Shown in pieces: positions 14,585 to 62,548 of a stretch of DNA of 64,000 bases. The stretch is taken from positions 1,917,187 through 1,981,186 of the forward strand of contig NZ_JACCCW010000001.1 of NCBI RefSeq assembly GCF_013410065.1, given 5' to 3'. Made by a program: the position numbers and the translations under genes. Position 1 is the first letter of the stretch, and each line of letters begins with the position of its first letter. The notes beneath the pieces were generated by a model that ran no database searches, was not told the origin of the DNA, and worked only from the letters and a program-made list of their open reading frames with translations. This DNA comes from Granulicella arctica (GTDB taxonomy: Bacteria; Acidobacteriota; Terriglobia; Terriglobales; Acidobacteriaceae).

Positions 14585-14923
14585 ATGGCAGCTAGCAAGA
14601 TCAAGATCAAGCGTAACGACGTAGTCGCAGTGATCGCCGGTAAAGACAAAGGCAAGCAGGGCCGCGTTCTTCGTGTTATCGCCGATAAAGATCGTCTCCT
14701 CGTCGAGGGCGTGATGATGATCAAAAAGCACGTGAAGCCTAACCCGCAGAAGAACATTCAGGGCGGTATCGCGGAGCAAGAAGCCACGATCCACATCTCG
14801 AACGTGATGCTCGTCGACGGCGAAGGCAACAAGACCCGCATCGGCACTCGCATCGAAGGTGACAAGAAAGTTCGTTTCTCGAAGGCATCCGGCAACGCGA
14901 TCCCCGAGAAAAAGAAGAAGTAA
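14585..14923 (+). CDS. rplX: 50S ribosomal protein L24
   Basis: 112 aa. It contains a KOW motif, IKRNDVVAVIAGKDKGKQGR, followed by VEGVMMIKKHVKPNPQ and GIAEQEATIHISNVML. L24 is one of the two assembly-initiator proteins of the 50S subunit. The C-terminus is Lys-rich (EKKKK). It is in standard order between rplN and rplE. Confidence 0.98.
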   Translation: MAASKIKIKRNDVVAVIAGKDKGKQGRVLRVIADKDRLLVEGVMMIKKHVKPNPQKNIQGGIAEQEATIHISNVMLVDGEGNKTRIGTRIEGDKKVRFSKASGNAIPEKKKK

Positions 14924-53007: not shown

Positions 53008-53054
53008 TTTCGGGATCTGAACCCAACCCCGAAAGGCCAAAACCTCAATAAAGC

Positions 53055-53512
53055 TACTGAGCGGATGTTATGAAGTGGAAGTACGCTGTTACGAGTCTGG
53101 CGCACATGAGTCTGGCGAAGTCGATGAAGTGAAGTCCTTTGAGGGTTGTTTCGAGCCTTTCGTAGTCATGAGCAAGCCTGCGGAAGCGGGCTGCCCAGGC
53201 GAAGCTTTGTTCGACGACCCAGCGTCGGGACAACAGCACGAAACCTCGTTTGGCCATGGGATGCTTGACGACTTCGAGCTTGATGCTCTGCTGCTGTGCG
53301 GCCTTGGCGGCGTTCTGGCCCGTGTGGCCGCGATCCAGCGACGCATCTGCTGGTAGATCGAGGCCTACGGAGGCAGATCGTTCGACATCCAACGCCACGG
53401 ACAGCCGCTCCGCGCAGAACAGGAAATAATGTGCCCTGACTACGGCCTTCACCTTTGATATAAGCCACATATGACGATGTCCTCGCACTTGCGAGGACAT
53501 CGTCTCACTCAT
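53055..53512 (-). pseudogene. IS5-family transposase remnant
   Basis: 152 codons resembling the C-terminal part of IS5/IS427-group DDE transposases: GQNAAKAAQQQSIKLEVVKH, then RWVVEQSFAWAARFRRLAHD and YERLETTLKGLHFIDFARLM, with the acidic residue of the DDE triad in VVEQSF. The N-terminal half with the first two Asp residues is missing or scrambled, so it is inactive. No terminal inverted repeats were identified. Confidence 0.75.
53474..53503. repeat. 14-bp perfect inverted repeat at the edge of the IS remnant
   Basis: ACGATGTCCTCGCA (53474-53487) and TGCGAGGACATCGT (53490-53503) are exact reverse complements, separated by CT. It lies at the truncated 5' side of the transposase remnant. Confidence 0.6.
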
Positions 53513-55211: not shown

Positions 55212-55514
55212 TTGCCGTCGCAACCTGCCAGTAGGCAGTTCAGGCCGGCAGCCGCAAGGCTGGGTCTGAAGGGCTTTAATTGCCACTGGTTGCGTCACGC
55301 CACGGCAAGTTGGCTCGATGCTGCGGGTACTCCCCTTAGCACGGTACAGACGCTACTGGGGCATACCTCCTCCGAGGTGACGGGGGAGCATTACATTCAT
55401 GCGATCTCCTCGGAGTCGCGAAATGCAGTGGGCCGGATCGGGGAATTGGCGATTGGACCCCAATGGACCCAAATCGAGCGTGGGGTTGAAAATCCCGCAG
55501 CTCTAATTAATTGA
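55212..55514 (+). pseudogene. Tyrosine recombinase C-terminal remnant next to tRNA-Pro
   Basis: CHWLRHATASWLDAAGTPLS and TVQTLLGHTSSEVTGEHYIH carry the His-x-x-Arg, LGH and catalytic Tyr boxes of tyrosine integrases. The N-terminal arm-binding and core domains and the first catalytic Arg are missing. It faces the 3' end of tRNA-Pro 16 nt away, the usual position of an integrase beside its attachment site. Confidence 0.7.
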
Positions 55515-55530
55515 AAACATGGAATTTAAA

Positions 55531-55607
<77 letters not shown>

Positions 55608-55732
55608 AATGTGATGCTGGAAGGATGCCGGTAGAGGATGCATTCCGTAAAGCTCAAGCGTTTGGGGAGGCTTGCTGGTCCGCTGTACCGACTTGGATAG
55701 TTTAGCAGAGATTGCCGCCGAGAGCTGTCGGA

Positions 55733-55762
55733 TTCTCACCAAAAGGGTTGTGGAGGTATACT
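55733..55762 (+). promoter_or_regulatory. Promoter of the cys leader and cysDNH operon
   Basis: A near-consensus -10 box TATACT (55757-55762) has a weak -35 box TTCTCA (55733-55738) 18 bp upstream. The predicted start, 7 nt after the -10 box, coincides with the GTG of the Cys-rich leader frame at 55769. Confidence 0.6.
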
Positions 55763-55768
55763 TAAGTC

Positions 55769-55849
55769 GTGACTAAGACCGTCCAGCGCGCCTGTTGTTG
55801 CCAAAGCTGTTGTTGCGTGGCGATGTCGGCTCGGCTCTGTCGACGCTAA
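55769..55849 (+). CDS. Cysteine-rich leader peptide upstream of cysD
   Basis: 26 codons plus TAA, starting GTG at 55769, with 7 Cys: a CCCQSCCC block (codons 9-16) and one later Cys. The GTG coincides with the transcription start predicted from TATACT, suggesting a leaderless mRNA; alternatively GGAGG (55752-55756) lies 12 nt upstream but would be outside the transcript. The position ahead of sulfate-assimilation genes fits a sensor of cysteinyl-tRNA supply. In mycobacteria, Cys-rich leaderless upstream frames attenuate cysteine genes. The peptide itself probably has no enzymatic role. Confidence 0.65.
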   Translation: MTKTVQRACCCQSCCCVAMSARLCRR

Positions 55850-55925
55850 AGCTTTCTAGCAGCTCTTCACTTTTTCACCCCCAAAATTCAATTAGAGTGC
55901 ATTTGGCTTGGCGTCCGCCACGCGA
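55813..55925 (+). promoter_or_regulatory. Long-range complementary arms in the cysD leader
   Basis: TTGCGTGGCG (55813-55822), over Cys codons 15-16 and the two codons after them, can pair with CGCCACGCGA (55916-55925) over 10 bp including one G-U. The 3' arm ends 7 nt before GGAG (55933-55936) of cysD. A competing local hairpin TGGC-GTCC-GCCA (55909-55920) uses part of the same arm. Confidence 0.5.
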
Positions 55926-55949
55926 ATGCTGTGGAGACCGATACCATCG

Positions 55950-56894
55950 ATGACAACAGCAGCCTTCATGACAGATGAAGTTGAGGTAGCCCAGCCAGCG
56001 CGACTGAATCATTTACAGGCGCTCGAGGCAGAGAGCATCGCGATCCTGCGCGAGGCGGTGGCTGAGTTTGCGCGCCCGGTGATGCTGTACTCGATCGGTA
56101 AGGACTCGTCGGTGATGCTTCGTCTGGCGCAGAAGGCGTTTTACCCCGGAAAGATTCCGTTCCCCCTCCTGCATGTCGATACCAGCTATAAGTTTCCGGA
56201 GATGATCACCTTTCGCGATGAGTATACGAAGGAGATCGGCGCGGACCTAATCGTGCATCGCAACGAAGAGGCCATCGCGGCGGGCGCGAATCCTTACACG
56301 CTGGGAACGCAGAACTGTTGTGGCCTGTTGAAGACACGCAGTTTGTTGGATGCTCTGGCGGAGGGCGGATTCGATGCGGCGTTTGGCGGTGCTCGCCGCG
56401 ACGAGGAGAAGAGTCGGGCCAAGGAACGTGTCTACTCCTTCCGCGATGCAGCCGGTCAGTGGGACCCGAAGAACCAGCGGCCCGAGCTTTGGAGCCTCTA
56501 TAACTCGCGGTTGCGAAAGGGCGAGAGCATCCGCGTGTTTCCGCTGTCGAACTGGACCGAGCTTGATATCTGGCTATATCTCTATGCGGAAAGGATTCCG
56601 ATTGTGCCTCTGTACTTTGCAAAGGAACGCGAGCTGGTGATGCGTGGCGGCGCTATGACGCTGGTACATCCTGGCATGAAGCTGCTGCCCGGTGAAACAG
56701 TGCAGACGGCGAAGGTTCGCATGCGCTCGCTGGGCTGCCTGCCTTGCACAGGTGCTATGCGGAGTGAGGCGGATACGCTGCCGAAGATCATCGAAGAGCT
56801 GATGACCTTCCGGCGGAGCGAGCGTGAGAACCGGGCGATCGATCATGACGAAGAGGGCTCCATGGAAGTGAAGAAGCGGGAGGGCTACTTCTAA
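55950..56894 (+). CDS. cysD: Sulfate adenylyltransferase subunit 2
   Basis: 314 aa from ATG 55950 (GGAG 13 nt upstream); starts at 55908 (TTG), 55926 and 55968 are also in frame, so the N-terminus is uncertain. ATP-PPase-type motifs are [35 protein letters not shown] and [17 protein letters not shown]. The C-terminal REGYF is typical. CysD adenylates sulfate to APS, driven by the CysN GTPase. Its TAA overlaps the cysN ATG by one base. Confidence 0.95.
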
Positions 56895-58558
56895 TGAGTA
56901 CGCATGTCGTTACGTCTCACAATGTAGTTGGTACGGTGAGTGAGTTTGATACATTCCTCGATGCTCATCTTGAGCAGGAGATGCTGCGCTTCACCACGGC
57001 AGGCAGCGTCGACGATGGAAAGAGCACGCTCATCGGCCGTCTTCTGCATGACACCAAGAGCGTCTACGAAGATCAGCTCGCGGCCGTGAAGCAGAGCCGC
57101 GTGAACCGGGCCTCGGGTGGCCATGTCGACTTTTCTCTGCTGACGGATGGGTTGAAGGCTGAGCGCGAACAGGGCATTACGATCGACGTCGCATACCGGT
57201 ATTTTTCGACGTCGCGGCGGAAGTTCATTATCGCCGACACTCCCGGTCATGAACAGTACACACGCAACATGGCGACCGGCGCATCAACCGCCGATGTGGC
57301 TATCGTACTGATCGATGCAAAGGCATTTTTGAAGCAGGGGAGCTTGCTTCCGCAGTCGCGACGGCACACTTACATTGCGTCGCTGCTTGGAATTCCTCAC
57401 GTTGTAGCGGCAGTCAATAAGATGGACCTCGCCGAATACTCTCAGAAGAACTTCGAGACAATCCGCGACGAGTTTTATGCATTGGCGAAGAAGCTTGGCC
57501 TGAAGAGTGTCGAGGCTATCCCCGTGAGCGCACTCGAAGGCGACAACGTCGTAACACCGAGCGTGGCGATGCCGTGGTATAAAGGCCCCACGCTCCTTGA
57601 ATATCTGGAGACGGTGCCTTTGCGCGTCCATGAAGTGGCTGGACCAATGCGGTTTCCCGTTCAATTGGTGCTGAGGCCGGACGCGAACTTCCGCGGATTT
57701 GCAGGTCAGGTGTCGCGCGGCATTCTGCGAACGGGAGATCGCGTCATGGCGCTTCCGTCGCGACGCGAAACGTTTGTGCGCAACATCGTGACCTATGATG
57801 GCCCGCTTGATGCGGCTGCGTTTCCGCAGAGTGTCACCGTGGAACTCGAGGATGAGATCGACCTGAGCCGTGGTGAGATGCTGGTGGCTGCTGGATCTGC
57901 TGCAACTCATCCGCAGGTAAGCACGCGCTTCCGAGCGATGGTTGTGTGGATGCACGAAGAGCCTCTTGCTGTTGGGCGAACGTATCTTGCAAAACACACG
58001 ACCCGCACGGTGCGGGCAACGGTGCGGGCAATCCAGTATAAGGTGGATGTCAGTTCGCTTTCGGAAGGATCGACGGACAGCCTGGCGATGAACGAGATTG
58101 GTGAGGTCGCGTTTGAAAGCAATCTGCCATTGTTCTTCGATGCTTATCAGGCGAATCGCATGATGGGTTCCGTCATCCTGATCGATGCGGTGACGAACGC
58201 AACTGTCGGGGCAGCGATGCTGATCGGCCTTGCGGATACGTCGCAGGCTCCATCTATAAGGATTGAACGAGCTACGCTCGCTATCGTGTCCGGACGGTCG
58301 GACCTTGCAGCTCGCGTGAAGGATGCGCTCGACGTGCGCGGTGAACGAGCAGTGTTGATTGATGATGAGTTTATTCCGGAATCGTCTGTGGTTGCAGTGG
58401 TCCGTGCACTTCAATTGGCCGGAGTAACTGCCATTACGGCACGGGTTCTGGATGCGGAGACGCTTGCTGCGCTTGAGGTTTTCGCAATCGCTGTTGTGAT
58501 TCAAGCGGACGAACTGGACGACGAGGCTCTGCTGGCTTCGCTGGAGGTGCAACGATGA
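56894..58558 (+). CDS. cysN: Sulfate adenylyltransferase subunit 1 with degenerate C-terminal APS-kinase-like domain
   Basis: 554 aa, versus about 430-475 for CysN alone. The GTPase domain has GSVDDGKSTLIGRL (Lys43), DTPGHEQYTRNMATGAS and NKMD, then EF-Tu-like domains 2-3 to about residue 445. The last roughly 100 residues resemble the start of an APS kinase (LAIVSGRSDLAARVKDAL, then VLIDDEF), but the Walker A GxxGxGKST is lost (VSGRSDLAA at 465-473). CysN powers APS synthesis by GTP hydrolysis. It overlaps cysH by 4 nt (ATGA). Confidence 0.93.
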   Translation: MSTHVVTSHNVVGTVSEFDTFLDAHLEQEMLRFTTAGSVDDGKSTLIGRLLHDTKSVYEDQLAAVKQSRVNRASGGHVDFSLLTDGLKAEREQGITIDVAYRYFSTSRRKFIIADTPGHEQYTRNMATGASTADVAIVLIDAKAFLKQGSLLPQSRRHTYIASLLGIPHVVAAVNKMDLAEYSQKNFETIRDEFYALAKKLGLKSVEAIPVSALEGDNVVTPSVAMPWYKGPTLLEYLETVPLRVHEVAGPMRFPVQLVLRPDANFRGFAGQVSRGILRTGDRVMALPSRRETFVRNIVTYDGPLDAAAFPQSVTVELEDEIDLSRGEMLVAAGSAATHPQVSTRFRAMVVWMHEEPLAVGRTYLAKHTTRTVRATVRAIQYKVDVSSLSEGSTDSLAMNEIGEVAFESNLPLFFDAYQANRMMGSVILIDAVTNATVGAAMLIGLADTSQAPSIRIERATLAIVSGRSDLAARVKDALDVRGERAVLIDDEFIPESSVVAVVRALQLAGVTAITARVLDAETLAALEVFAIAVVIQADELDDEALLASLEVQR

Positions 58559-59250
58559 ATGCTGTCGAATCGGTTATAGATTATGAGGAGCTTTCTGCCG
58601 AGGCGCTGGTCGAACAGATTTTGCGCGAGTCAGCAGGGCAGAAGGTCTGCCTGACAAGCAGCTTTCAAATCGAGGACATGGTCGTACTGCATCTGCTGCG
58701 GAAGCATCTGCTGGATGTGCCTGTGATCTTCCTCGAGACCGGTTATCACTTCGCCGAACTGCTGGCGTATCGAGATAGAATGACGGCGGAGTGGGGACTA
58801 AACCTGCTCAACGCGATGCCGCTGACGACACTCAAGGAGCACGAGGCTCAGTTCGGGTTGTTGCATATCGTGCAGCCGACGGAGTGCTGCCGCATTCGTA
58901 AAGTGGAGCCGCTGATGCGTTCGCTTGAGCCGTATGCGTGGTGGTTCACCGGGTTGCGACGAGAGCAGTCGCCGACGAGAGCGGCGTTGAAAAAGATAGA
59001 AGACCATCGAACTCCGACAGGAAAGCAGATGAAGAAGGTCAGTGTGCTGGCGGACTGGACCTGGGCGCAGGTAACGGAGTACGCGGATCTGCATCAGATT
59101 CCTAAACTGGGGCTCTACGAAAAGGGATATACCAGCATCGGATGTGAGCCTTGCACCGCGATTCCGGAGGCTGGTGCGGATGCGCGCAGCGGTCGCTGGG
59201 GAGGCAAGAAGTTGGAGTGCGGGATTCATACGTTTTCGGAGAAGGCCTAG
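58555..59250 (+). CDS. cysH: Adenylylsulfate (APS) reductase, thioredoxin-dependent
   Basis: 231 aa. The catalytic Cys222 is in ECGIH. Four further cysteines, Cys111-Cys112 and Cys197-x2-Cys200, are the [4Fe-4S] ligands that mark APS-using (plant/bacterial type) rather than PAPS-using reductases. SSFQIEDMVVLHLL and FLETGYHF form the nucleotide site. It reduces APS to sulfite with thioredoxin. This explains why no working APS kinase is needed here. It is coupled to cysN by a 4-nt overlap. Confidence 0.94.
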   Translation: MNAVESVIDYEELSAEALVEQILRESAGQKVCLTSSFQIEDMVVLHLLRKHLLDVPVIFLETGYHFAELLAYRDRMTAEWGLNLLNAMPLTTLKEHEAQFGLLHIVQPTECCRIRKVEPLMRSLEPYAWWFTGLRREQSPTRAALKKIEDHRTPTGKQMKKVSVLADWTWAQVTEYADLHQIPKLGLYEKGYTSIGCEPCTAIPEAGADARSGRWGGKKLECGIHTFSEKA

Positions 59251-59277: not shown

Positions 59278-60396
59278 ATGATGGAGCGACGACAGATCGT
59301 CGGGTTGTGGCGACGGGGTGGTACTTCCGTGCTGGTGACGCTGATCCGCTCTGAAGGCTCGTCGTATCGACAGCCTGGGGCTCGGCTGTTGATCGCCGGC
59401 AATAGCGACTATGCGGGCACGATCAGCGGCGGTTGCCTGGAGACGGAGGTTGTCCGCAAGGCGGCCTGGCGAGTGCGCGAGGGTGCTGTTGTGGAGCGCT
59501 ACTCGACGTTGTTCGACGATACGGCGGAGATTCCGTTTGGCCTGGGCTGCGGCGGCATTGTGGATTTATTGATGGAGCCGGTCGAGACAGTGGAGTGTCA
59601 GGCGCTGCTGATGGCGATGGAGGCTTCGTTGCGTGGTGAATCCGCAACGGTTGTGACTTGGTTGCCCAATGCAGAGAGGCCACTTCGTCGAGTGGTTCTG
59701 AGCTCCGATAGGACGGAAATCTTCGCCAGCGAAGGGCTGAGCCCGAAGAAGCTTGCGTGCGCGCATGGGTTGCAGCCTGGACAGGAGCAAGATGGGCGCT
59801 ATGTTGAAGAATTGCGTCCTCCGCAGCGATTGATTGTGTTGGGTGCAGGAGACGATGCCAAGCCGTTGGTGAGCCTCTCTGCTTTGCTGGGTTGGAGTGT
59901 TACGGTTGCGGATGGTCGCGCGCAGCTGACTCGGCCGGAACGGTTTCCGGAGGCGGAGAGAGTTGTGCTCCTTGCTGCCGGAATGTGGGATGCTGGATCG
60001 CTGGATGTTCGTCCCCAGGATGCGGTTGTGTTGATGACGCACAGCTATGAGCAGGATCGCGAACTGCTGGCGCGGATGCTGCCACAGGAGCCGCGCTATC
60101 TGGGGCTTCTGGGAGCGCGGCATCGCAGCAGTCTGCTGGTGAGCGAGGTCGCGATGATGCTTGACTGGAGCATCGCGGATTGCTGCGAGCGGATCTATGC
60201 TCCGGTGGGTTTGGATCTGGGTGGAGATGGTCCGGAGGCAATCGCGCTTGCGGTGATCGCGGAGGTTCAGGCGTGTTGCATGGGCAAGCTGGGGGCTTCG
60301 CGGCGGCTGACTGAGGGTGATGTGGCGGCGCAGATCGCGAAAGGCGGATCGAGTCGCTATCTACAGATGTACTGTGCGTTGGACCAGGTTTCGTGA
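59278..60396 (+). CDS. XdhC/CoxI family molybdoenzyme maturation protein
   Basis: 372 aa. The N-terminal XdhC domain has GSSYRQPGARLLIAG, GTISGGCLETEVV and FGLGCGGIVDLLMEP. The C-terminal Rossmann domain has LIVLGAGDDAKPLVSLSALL and ends with the family GLDLGGDGPEAIALAVIAEV. XdhC-type proteins bind molybdenum cofactor and help insert its sulfurated form into xanthine dehydrogenase-type enzymes; the likely client is encoded convergently just downstream. It begins 27 nt after cysH and overlaps the next gene by 4 nt (GTGA). Confidence 0.92.
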   Translation: MMERRQIVGLWRRGGTSVLVTLIRSEGSSYRQPGARLLIAGNSDYAGTISGGCLETEVVRKAAWRVREGAVVERYSTLFDDTAEIPFGLGCGGIVDLLMEPVETVECQALLMAMEASLRGESATVVTWLPNAERPLRRVVLSSDRTEIFASEGLSPKKLACAHGLQPGQEQDGRYVEELRPPQRLIVLGAGDDAKPLVSLSALLGWSVTVADGRAQLTRPERFPEAERVVLLAAGMWDAGSLDVRPQDAVVLMTHSYEQDRELLARMLPQEPRYLGLLGARHRSSLLVSEVAMMLDWSIADCCERIYAPVGLDLGGDGPEAIALAVIAEVQACCMGKLGASRRLTEGDVAAQIAKGGSSRYLQMYCALDQVS

Positions 60397-60944
60397 TCGC
60401 TGCGGTTGTGCTTGCGGCTGGAGCTTCGACACGGCTGGGTATAGCGAAACAGCTTGTTGTGTTTGGCGGCGAGACGCTGTTGGATCGGGCGGTGCGCGTC
60501 GCTGTGGAGGCGGGCTGTTCGCCGGTTGTTGTCGTGCTCGGCGCATCGGCTGCGTTGATTCGGGAGCGGTGTTCGCTGCATGGCGCTCAGGTGGTTGTGA
60601 ATGAAGCGTGGGCCGATGGAATGGCATCTTCGATTCGTTGCGGTTTTGGTGCTTTGGGCGATGTCGACGGCTGTGTTGTGATGACCTGCGATATGCCTAC
60701 GGTGACCTCGATGCATCTGCGGTTGCTGATGGTTGCGGGAGAGCTTACGGCTTCTTCTTATGCTGAACGGCGCGGCGTTCCTGCCTATTTCCCGGTGGCT
60801 GTTTTTGCGGAGTTGATGGAGTTGCATGGCGACGCTGGGGGCCGCGAGTTATTGAAGTCCGCACGTATTGTGGAGTTGCCTGGCGGAGAGTTCGATGTGG
60901 ATACAGTTGAGGAGCTGGAACAGGCTCGGAAGCTCTTTGGATAG
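60393..60944 (+). CDS. MocA-like molybdenum cofactor nucleotidyltransferase
   Basis: 183 aa with a GTG start at 60393 overlapping the xdhC stop. VVLAAGASTRLGIAKQLVVF is the NTP-binding LAAGxSxRxGxxKQL signature, and MTCDMPTV the metal-binding loop. It probably adds CMP (MocA) or GMP to molybdopterin; hydroxylases of the xanthine dehydrogenase family usually use the CMP form, so MocA is the better guess. It is last in the cys-xdhC operon. Confidence 0.87.
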   Translation: MIAAVVLAAGASTRLGIAKQLVVFGGETLLDRAVRVAVEAGCSPVVVVLGASAALIRERCSLHGAQVVVNEAWADGMASSIRCGFGALGDVDGCVVMTCDMPTVTSMHLRLLMVAGELTASSYAERRGVPAYFPVAVFAELMELHGDAGGRELLKSARIVELPGGEFDVDTVEELEQARKLFG

Positions 60945-60955
60945 CATTAAATTTA

Positions 60956-60978
60956 TGTGTAACTGTAAAAGTTACACA
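60956..60978. terminator. Bidirectional terminator between mocA-like and FAD-subunit genes
   Basis: TGTGTAACT (60956-60964) and AGTTACACA (60970-60978) form a perfect 9-bp stem with a 5-nt loop. It overlaps the TAA stop of the minus-strand gene and lies 12 nt after the plus-strand stop. Confidence 0.65.
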
Positions 60979-61823
60979 CTCTGCAAGAACTCCTCCAGAA
61001 GATTCGCAGCAACAATGCTTCGGTAGTTTGAGGTGCTGCGGATGTCGTCGATGGGGCGCGTTTCGGCGAAGAGTGCGGCTCGAGCGGCGGCGATGGCTGC
61101 TGCGTTGATCGGTTTGCCGGTTAGGATTGTTTCGGCGGCGGTGAGGCGGATGGGAAACTCGCGCAGGCTGGCCGCTCCGATCCGTATATCTTCGATGAAG
61201 CCGTTCTTCATGCGGGCCAGCGCGGCGATGGCAACTTTGGAGATGGCCTGCGCGTTGCGGGTTCCGACCTTGCGAGTGTAGGAGATGTAACCATGGAAGA
61301 TACGTTTTAGCGTGATGCTGTGGAGCAGCTCGTCGGGTCGCAGCGCCGTTTTTTTATAGCCGAGATAGAAATCGCGATAGGGCATGGTGCGGCGGCCTGC
61401 GGTTGAGATGAGGGTGAGCTCGGCGTCGTAGGCGAGCAGCGCGGGGGGAGAGTCGGCGGCTGGGCTGGCGTTGACGATGTTGCCGCCGAGGGTGCCTCGG
61501 TTCTGGTTGGCGATGGAGCCGGTCCAGCTCGCTGCCTGGCTAAGAAGCGGAAAGTCGCTGGCGATCATGGGATGGCGGCGAAGGTCGGTGAAGGTTGTTC
61601 CGGAGCCGATGGTGATGGTCTCGGGCGTGACATCCATGAAGCGGAGTTCGGAAAAGTGGTTGATCGAGAGGAGCGGTTTCTTCGGCAGGCGACCTGCGGA
61701 GAGCGCGACCATGAGTTCGGTGCCGCCGGCGATGAGCGTGTGTCTGCCTTCGGCCAGGGTGGCGAGCGCGGCGGTGAGGGTCGCGGGAGCGATGAGGTCG
61801 TACTCTGTGACGTTGGCGCGCAT
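60972..61823 (-). CDS. FAD-binding subunit of a xanthine dehydrogenase/aldehyde oxidase-type enzyme
   Basis: 283 aa. The FAD pyrophosphate loop LIAGGTELMVALSAGRL, the second motif TIGSGTTFTDLRRHP and the NIVNASPAADSPPALLAYDA segment are typical of CoxM/XdhB-type subunits. It carries electrons from the 2Fe-2S subunit to the acceptor. It is last in the minus-strand molybdoenzyme operon, 15 nt after the small membrane-protein gene. Confidence 0.92.
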   Translation of the reverse strand: MRANVTEYDLIAPATLTAALATLAEGRHTLIAGGTELMVALSAGRLPKKPLLSINHFSELRFMDVTPETITIGSGTTFTDLRRHPMIASDFPLLSQAASWTGSIANQNRGTLGGNIVNASPAADSPPALLAYDAELTLISTAGRRTMPYRDFYLGYKKTALRPDELLHSITLKRIFHGYISYTRKVGTRNAQAISKVAIAALARMKNGFIEDIRIGAASLREFPIRLTAAETILTGKPINAAAIAAARAALFAETRPIDDIRSTSNYRSIVAANLLEEFLQSV

Positions 61824-61838
61824 GAGGCTCCGTGCGGG

Positions 61839-62045
61839 TTAATGGGGAAAGTAGCTGCCGAGGATGCCGAAGCCGATGAGGAGCAGGCCGACGAAGTTCA
61901 GAACGACGCGGCAGAACCATTGCGGGTTTTCGCCGTCGGGGGTCGCGCAGGGGGCGAAGGTGCGGCTGCCGCCACGAGCGAAGCCGATCAAGATAAAGAT
62001 GATGCCGAGGGCGAGGGGGATGTCCCGGAGGAGGTTGATGTGCAT
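61839..62045 (-). CDS. Small membrane protein between 2Fe-2S and FAD subunit genes
   Basis: 68 aa, MHINLLRDIPLALGIIFILI to GILGSYFPH. There are two membrane segments (about residues 9-24 and 47-64) and a short loop with two Cys (APCATPDGENPQWFC). AGGAG lies 8 nt upstream of the ATG. It overlaps the 3' end of the 2Fe-2S gene by 58 nt. Not recognised as a known family. The start, RBS and composition support it as a real gene, possibly a membrane anchor for the oxidoreductase. Confidence 0.7.
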   Translation of the reverse strand: MHINLLRDIPLALGIIFILIGFARGGSRTFAPCATPDGENPQWFCRVVLNFVGLLLIGFGILGSYFPH

Positions 62046-62548
62046 GGCGTGTCTCCTTGTGTGGAAGACTGCTGTGCGCACGATTGTACCGCGGCGAAGA
62101 TACGAATGTAACCAGTGCAACGGCAGAGGTTGCCGGCGAGGCCCTCCTGGATCTGCGCCAGTGTTGGCTGTGGGTGCTTCGCGAGCAGGTGATGCGTGGC
62201 GAGAATCATGCCAGGAGTGCAGATGCCGCACTGGGCTCCGCCGCTCTCGAGGAAGCATTGTTGGATGGGGTGTAGATGCTCCTCGATGGCGAGGCCCTCG
62301 ATGGTGGTGATGGTCGCTCCATCGGCCTGAAGGGCGGGGACGAGGCAGGAGTTGACGAGTTCGCCGTTCATCAGGACGGAGCAGGAACCGCACTCGCCTT
62401 CGCCACAACCTTCTTTTGCGCCGGTGAGGTGCAGGTCCTCGCGGAGGAGGTCTAGGAGGCGCTTCATGGGTGGAGTTTCGAGGGTGCGTGGCTGACCGTT
62501 GATCGTGAGGGTGATCGAATTGTCGCGTTTTCCGGTCGGCTGGTTCAA
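61988..62548 (-). CDS. 2Fe-2S subunit of a xanthine dehydrogenase/aldehyde oxidase-type enzyme
   Basis: 186 aa from TTG 62548. The plant-ferredoxin-type cluster is Cys48, Cys53, Cys56 and Cys68 (CGEGECGSC...C). The second cluster is Cys107, Cys110, Cys142 and Cys144 (QCGICTPG, LCRCTGY). The family normally ends shortly after CRCTGY; here a Ser/Thr/Pro-rich tail of about 30 residues continues across the RBS and first codons of the next gene. No ATG start is available. It transfers electrons from the molybdenum site to FAD. Confidence 0.9.
   Translation of the reverse strand: MNQPTGKRDNSITLTINGQPRTLETPPMKRLLDLLREDLHLTGAKEGCGEGECGSCSVLMNGELVNSCLVPALQADGATITTIEGLAIEEHLHPIQQCFLESGGAQCGICTPGMILATHHLLAKHPQPTLAQIQEGLAGNLCRCTGYIRIFAAVQSCAQQSSTQGDTPCTSTSSGTSPSPSASSLS

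Follow-up and report, generated by a model that had tools for sequence, protein, structure and literature searches.

What purpose might a 26-codon, cysteine-packed reading frame serve directly in front of a set of sulfate assimilation genes? In the 64-kb stretch of Granulicella arctica DNA analysed here (the window), positions 55769-55849 of the forward strand carry a GTG-initiated frame of 26 codons followed by TAA, which translates as VTKTVQRACCCQSCCCVAMSARLCRR. Seven residues of the 26 amino acid peptide are cysteines, arranged as a CCCQSCCC block plus one close to the C-terminal end. Ranking the 862 short frames of the window by cysteine density (12-60 amino acids, read on either strand from the earliest start codon of the frame) placed this frame at the top, with seven cysteines in 16 codons, the runners-up having six and five. 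The second richest is a short frame at 14888 on the reverse strand, with six cysteines in 16 codons. The peptide matched 0 families in NCBIfam at E-values up to 1, and the sole Rfam match over gathering score between 50000 and 64000 was a tRNA at 55534-55607, the leader region containing no known riboswitch or RNA family. The evidence set out below leads us to regard 55769-55849 as probably encoding a leader peptide through which charged tRNA-Cys is sensed and cysDNH and the genes behind it are controlled.

The genes that would be controlled in this way all lie on the forward strand. Because TTG 55908 and ATG 55968 share the cysD reading frame, ATG 55950 can only be put forward as the likely start codon; taking it as such, 100 nt separate the leader stop from cysD, as the first-pass annotation had stated. 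This spacer (55850-55949) is C-rich and G-poor at its 5' end, contains no intrinsic terminator that we could find, and includes GGAGA at 55933-55937, 12 nt 5' of ATG 55950, which can be read as a weak, possible Shine-Dalgarno sequence for cysD. It is followed by cysD (55950-56894, NCBIfam CysD models), cysN (56894-58558, NCBIfam CysN models), cysH, encoding a (phospho)adenylyl-sulfate reductase (58555-59250, NCBIfam PRK02090, above cut-off), an XdhC-like gene (59278-60396) and a MocA-like cytidylyltransferase gene (60393-60944), the last two identified from NCBIfam matches under the curated cut-offs. Facing the XdhC-like/MocA-like end of this row are genes for molybdopterin-dehydrogenase FAD and 2Fe-2S subunits (60972-62548, reverse strand).

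The first-pass annotation had named the conservation of Cys codons upstream of cysD in close relatives as a point on which its reading could fall. Among 62 genomes of the genus, cysD was found in 54, and 54 loci from 53 genomes were used (two cysD fragments of G084 were dropped). A blind criterion was applied to the region from 350 nt upstream to 30 nt into the cysD match, scoring any start-bearing frame of 12-60 amino acids with at least four Cys in 16 codons. Such a frame precedes cysD at 50 of the 54 loci, compared with 4/54 on the reverse strand and 81/1080 dinucleotide shuffles, and by eye leaders could be recognised at 52/54. At one of the remaining loci (L007) the leader frame is kept after a TATAAT, yet it contains just three scattered Cys; at the other (L132), which is a second, diverged copy of cysD, a leader was looked for upstream and was not found. 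Both were left out as being without a usable uORF. Outside the genus set, with five or more Cys required per 16 codons and 400 nt searched (L036, L060 and L079 were omitted, their upstream regions being too short), a Cys-rich frame was present at 8/32 further loci from Acidobacteria or from the order or class of the window, the genus membership of which was not checked singly (reverse strand 0/32), and at 1/45 loci from other phyla (reverse strand 0/45). In more distant Acidobacteria (L042, L046, L086 and others) poly-Cys frames followed by terminator-like hairpins were also seen before cysD by eye.

The 52 leaders could be sorted by sequence into class A (n=25, including the window), class B (n=12) and class C (n=15), of which typical examples are ..RACCCCRMLPCPCARCCR, TACRMCRSFCCCMA..RGCECCR and MRISCQLRCCCPFNVEQACRLTR, respectively. 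The leader in the window has two CCC runs, and each of the 22 class A relatives aligned with it has at most one. Within groups of uORFs of the same length, the ratio of synonymous changes among single-base codon differences was above the neutral value in every group, being 1.21 against 0.28 for eight class A uORFs, 0.63 against 0.32 for a group of six class A uORFs, 0.48 against 0.30 for eight class C uORFs and 0.67 against 0.26 for two class B uORFs, where the pairs compared are not independent of one another. Codon choice at the cysteines is also skewed, with 251 TGT and 83 TGC in the 52 uORFs against 16 TGT and 140 TGC in the stretch of cysD that the longer loci contain; the contrast is weaker with seven genes of the window, which have 12 TGT and 25 TGC. 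That the frame arose by chance and has no function is barely credible: although a frame with at least four Cys in 16 codons does occur in 81/1080 shuffled upstream regions, this reading is contradicted by the 50/54 loci, by the synonymous bias, and by the promoter register and the parallel set of leaders before sir that are described below. We conclude from these comparisons of sequence that the leader frame of the window is real and conserved, so that the refuting condition set in the first-pass annotation did not apply.

The first-pass annotation had further placed the leader GTG at a transcription start predicted from TATACT. Translation together with a consensus promoter scan bore out the position of the 26-codon, seven-Cys frame 3' of this hexamer. 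The only sigma-70-like promoter detected on the forward strand between 55500 and 56100 is TTCTCA-18-TATACT, ending at 55762, with the predicted -35-like hexamer at 55733-55738 and the -10-like hexamer at 55757-55762, and the gap from the latter to the GTG is 6 nt. The arrangement recurs throughout the class: when the 60 nt upstream were searched, 25/25 class A loci had their best -10-like hexamer 6-10 nt 5' of the start codon, and we therefore predict that class A uORFs are leaderless. A start of transcription at the leader GTG would be consistent with this register, and 55769-55849 is treated here as a predicted leaderless Cys-rich leader peptide frame, based on its deduced peptide, conservation and coding constraint. 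About 13% of genes were earlier predicted to be leaderless in Acidobacteria, a figure that comes from three genomes (PMC3160421).

For class C, the best -10-like hexamer is 9-12 nt before the start codon in 12/13 loci, a spacing that leaves room for a very short 5' UTR of a few bases. Scoring of the -10 hexamer failed for class B, where just 1/12 loci had one at 5-11 nt, and the register for this class is therefore based on the spacing of a TTGACA, read by eye, of which the first base is 35-38 nt 5' of the start codon in 12/12, and which puts the predicted +1 about 3 nt or less from it. The sir leaders have a TTGAC at about the matching distance in 14/14 examined. An alternative for the window is that the leader is translated from a longer 5' UTR and is not leaderless, with GGAGG at 55752-55756, 12 nt 5' of the GTG, as its Shine-Dalgarno sequence. 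This GGAGG would act in such a role only given a transcription start further upstream, however, and no second promoter-like site was found in 55500-56100 (+); moreover, in the aligned relatives it is the -10-like hexamer that recurs 5' of the start codon, whereas a GGAGG in the position seen in the window does not. We consider this alternative very unlikely.

The classes differ in more than their leader sequences. In a CysD tree of 36 sequences, the branches that set class A apart from the other two classes are long and have full support, and cysN identity to that of the window is about 71-90% for class A and 52-57% for classes B and C. A tRNA-Pro(CGG) gene, which in the window lies at 55531-55607 and is divergent (reverse strand), is nearby at 22/24 class A loci and at 0/21 class B and C loci, nine of which are only 1001 bases long. 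The branches of the CysD tree, the cysN identities and the tRNA-Pro context together indicate that there are at least two separate types of cysD within one genus, with Cys leaders that are unlike in sequence, and a repeated origin of such leaders is possible. The tRNA-Pro gene also bears on a motif, TTTAGCAGA (55701-55709), that is conserved before 20/25 class A uORFs: we dropped this motif as a candidate regulator site, as it is more likely to be the -10 region of the divergent tRNA gene on the other strand. Beside the tRNA gene, a 100 amino acid frame at 55212-55514 matches tyrosine recombinase models at their C-terminal end and is perhaps the remnant of an integrated element, and a Pfam transposase DDE domain is encoded in a frame at 53054-53512 on the reverse strand.

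A second leader is present in the same genome (G000:C2; loci L173 and L228), where the sulfite reductase gene (sir; PF01077) is preceded by the Cys-rich, predicted leaderless frame MSFSCNRRAVACRHCCCPCATSALHRFLD and then by the terminator GCCCACTCTACCCAGTGGGC-TTTTCTGT; leader and intrinsic terminator together occupy positions 873-1056 of L173, about 1127800-1128000 of G000:C2. At the threshold used, sir was identified in 57/62 genus genomes. A criterion of three or more Cys per 16 codons, applied over 300 nt, gave a sir leader at 53/56 loci, compared with 8/56 on the reverse strand (a partial sir match of G073 was dropped), and 52 of the 53 leaders have an intrinsic terminator between the frame and the gene. 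Thirty cysK loci scanned at a threshold of at least five Cys gave three matches (L205, L212 and L214), 0 of them upstream of the gene on the same strand, and a search of the window's own genome for a sulfate permease of family PF00916 gave no match. From sequence, then, this genome has at least two Cys leaders of the same kind, before cysD and before sir. The first of these had been noticed in the first-pass annotation, which overlooked both the sir leader with its terminator and the class of cysD leaders with a terminator and possible antiterminator.

All groups were scanned for intrinsic terminators with one script (the structure tests were run without L118, L119, L127 and L136). Terminators were found at 12/12 class B cysD loci (shuffles 10/240) and 13/14 sir loci (shuffles 9/280), at 2/23 class A loci (shuffles 34/460), which is no excess over chance, and at 0/13 class C loci (shuffles 10/260). 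No intrinsic terminator was found on scanning 55500-56100 of the window. In class B, a segment of the uORF, GUGGGUG, is able to pair with the 5' arm of the terminator, and pairing between the end of the uORF and this arm beats that of its own shuffles in 11/12 loci (mean -13.6 compared with -10.1 kcal/mol). When the putative class B antiterminator was aligned, 85.2% of cells were paired, with changes on both sides at three of nine pairs and four pairs invariant; the two outermost pairs fail in 6/12 and 5/12, and in a control a slid partner paired in 30-57%. The alignment of the class B terminator itself was 85.4% paired, with changes on both sides at three of eight pairs and five invariant. 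These models make an antiterminator that includes the leader frame possible. The class B terminator and its competing pairing would thus provide the parts of a classical attenuator, in which the sensor frame is predicted to be leaderless. The equivalent pairing at sir, between the uORF and the 5' arm of the terminator, was rejected, since it was -7.06 compared with -8.37 for shuffled sequences. Taken together, the sir terminators and the class B terminators with their possible antiterminator suggest that Cys-tRNA-sensing attenuation is likely for the set of leaders.

How, then, might a class A leader such as that of the window act on cysD? One answer is translational attenuation of the mycobacterial type, in which the cysD ribosome binding site (RBS) is hidden in the RNA until a ribosome stalled in the Cys tract exposes it; control would then be exerted on initiation and not on transcription. 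The mechanism has been described for M. smegmatis, in citing papers discussed below, and folding of the window alone lends it some colour: when the Cys tract was masked, the cysD RBS had an average probability of being unpaired of 0.47, against 0.27 when the ribosome was placed at the stop codon, and pairing of the Cys tract with the cysD start was -13.1 kcal/mol compared with a shuffled mean of -11.4. The free RNA of the window, however, had a value of 0.45 and already resembles the stalled state. Folding models of 23 class A, 11 class B and 13 class C leaders (L122 omitted) gave no systematic effect of a stalled ribosome on the RBS, and for class A the mean unpaired probabilities were 0.47 for free RNA, 0.51 with the Cys tract masked and 0.47 with the ribosome at the stop codon. 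The pairing of the Cys tract with the cysD start (GCUGUUGU in the uORF and ACAACAGC at the cysD start) is attractive by eye, yet over class A it was -8.14 compared with -8.33 for shuffled sequences and was rejected. Pairing of the uORF with the spacer likewise showed no excess over shuffles in class A (mean z +0.23); the mean z was -1.18 for class B, -0.50 for class C and -0.55 for sir. For pairing of the Cys tract with the RBS, class C was slightly better than shuffles (-8.58 compared with -7.31) and class B was worse (-6.20 compared with -7.36). We therefore regard translational attenuation as a doubtful explanation for the window. Of the first-pass proposal of Cys-leader attenuation of the mycobacterial type, the conserved Cys frames at a predicted start before cysD and sir hold up, whereas the RBS-freeing step is not supported by folding in class A.

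As the tests for an output step in class A (terminator, RBS opening and pairings) were all negative, the leader in this class could instead be the relic of a terminator-bearing ancestor that has lost control of cysD, and the reduced Cys run of the L007 leader fits with such a loss. Against this, class A uORFs show coding constraint and have preserved their Cys runs, the promoter spacing is preserved in 25/25 loci, and in the window the CCC run is doubled. Decay of this kind seems improbable to us.

Given a working leader, we lean weakly towards Rho-dependent attenuation in the spacer as the output, a tentative preference that follows from having found neither an intrinsic terminator nor a class-wide RBS switch in class A. 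The first 50 nt of the spacer have a composition of 0.28 C and 0.12 G in the window and, on average over the 52 loci, of 0.35 C and 0.13 G. Folding of the window spacer is no better than that of shuffles (z -0.18), and a weak hairpin about 40 nt before cysD had a mean z of -0.62 (L015 omitted). The excess of C over G at the start of the spacer is in the top 5% of the locus' own DNA in 9/23 class A, 3/12 class B and 2/13 class C loci. Because it is also present in classes B and C, this excess is no specific evidence for Rho, and as a class A-specific sign of a Rho site, examined here through base composition alone, it was rejected.

For the leader itself we infer a transcription start, translation, stalling and a direction of response as follows. 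RNA polymerase would start about 7 nt after TATACT, placing the 5' end of the message at the leader GTG or no more than a few bases from it, and a message beginning there would be translated without a 5' leader. With Cys-tRNA scarce, the Cys runs would slow the ribosome, and cysDNH and the following genes would be expressed more strongly; with cysteine plentiful, the leader frame would be completed quickly and expression would go down. In the putative Rho step, a ribosome held at the near-stop Cys codons would cover the entry to the spacer with its excess of C over G. If the ribosome were instead to stall a long way before the stop codon, the naked spacer RNA is expected to favour Rho, which has the wrong sign and argues against this step. 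Class A shares its terminator-free state, with Cys runs near the stop codon, with mycobacterial cys leaders. We accordingly place good confidence in Cys-tRNA sensing and treat Rho as a weak lead.

If this account is true, ribosomes read the cysteine supply directly at the extreme 5' terminus of the transcript in these soil Acidobacteria, and cysD classes A, B and C together with sir form, within one genus, a natural comparison set in which one kind of sensor has different outputs. Such a set makes testable both the origin of leaderless leader peptides and the signalling of a stall without a terminator. That predicted leaderless poly-Cys leaders without obvious kinship, on two deeply diverged cysD types and on sir, with different outputs, represent a module that has arisen repeatedly and been coupled to whichever effector was available, and that a ribosome-run cysteine regulon of Acidobacteria evolved apart from that of mycobacteria, is an idea that we entertain while judging it short of probable.

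Leaderless polycysteine short ORFs are known from mycobacteria (Canestrari et al. 2020, doi 10.1111/mmi.14498, as described in the relevant parts of PMC9031893, PMC9094748 and PMC13236596), and papers citing that study report translational attenuation in M. smegmatis. As far as these accounts describe them, the mycobacterial ORFs resemble those found here in having contiguous Cys codons, a start codon at the transcription start (here a predicted one), a position before cysteine or sulfur genes (here cysDNH and sir) and several loci per genome. Unlike them, the leaders described here belong to another phylum, and we claim no kinship in sequence; intrinsic terminators follow the sir and class B cysD leaders; and the RBS mechanism is unsupported by folding models in class A, the class of the window. 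Cys leader peptides were also predicted in Actinobacteria in 2005, with Cys runs near the stop codon and no obvious terminator, and with Rho as one proposal, in the portion of PMC1262725 concerned with them. Class A is like these, on that description, which does not deal with leaderless starts, in having near-stop Cys codons before a cys operon without a terminator, from which the class B and sir leaders with their terminators differ.

Attenuators of the trp type have a recent form in ilvB1 of M. tuberculosis, according to the part of PMC13236596 that deals with it. The sir and class B leaders share with this type the combination of regulatory codons and a terminator, and class B in addition has a possible competing pairing in which the leader frame takes part; the differences are the predicted leaderless start, the use of Cys codons and, for the leader in the window, the lack of a terminator. 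In Rho-dependent attenuation of the TnaC type, a ribosome held near the stop codon covers RNA needed by Rho. The leader in the window possibly shares this near-stop shielding by a ribosome, with a Rho site that is hypothetical here (TnaC is mentioned in PMC1262725). The first-pass annotation knew of no described case in Acidobacteria, and our search came to the same outcome: it found no account of such peptides from this phylum in the literature covered, which did not extend to most subscription papers. Leaderless poly-Cys leaders as such are therefore already known from mycobacteria, and what is new, as far as we have found, is the phylum, the union of such leaders with intrinsic terminators and the split in their output.
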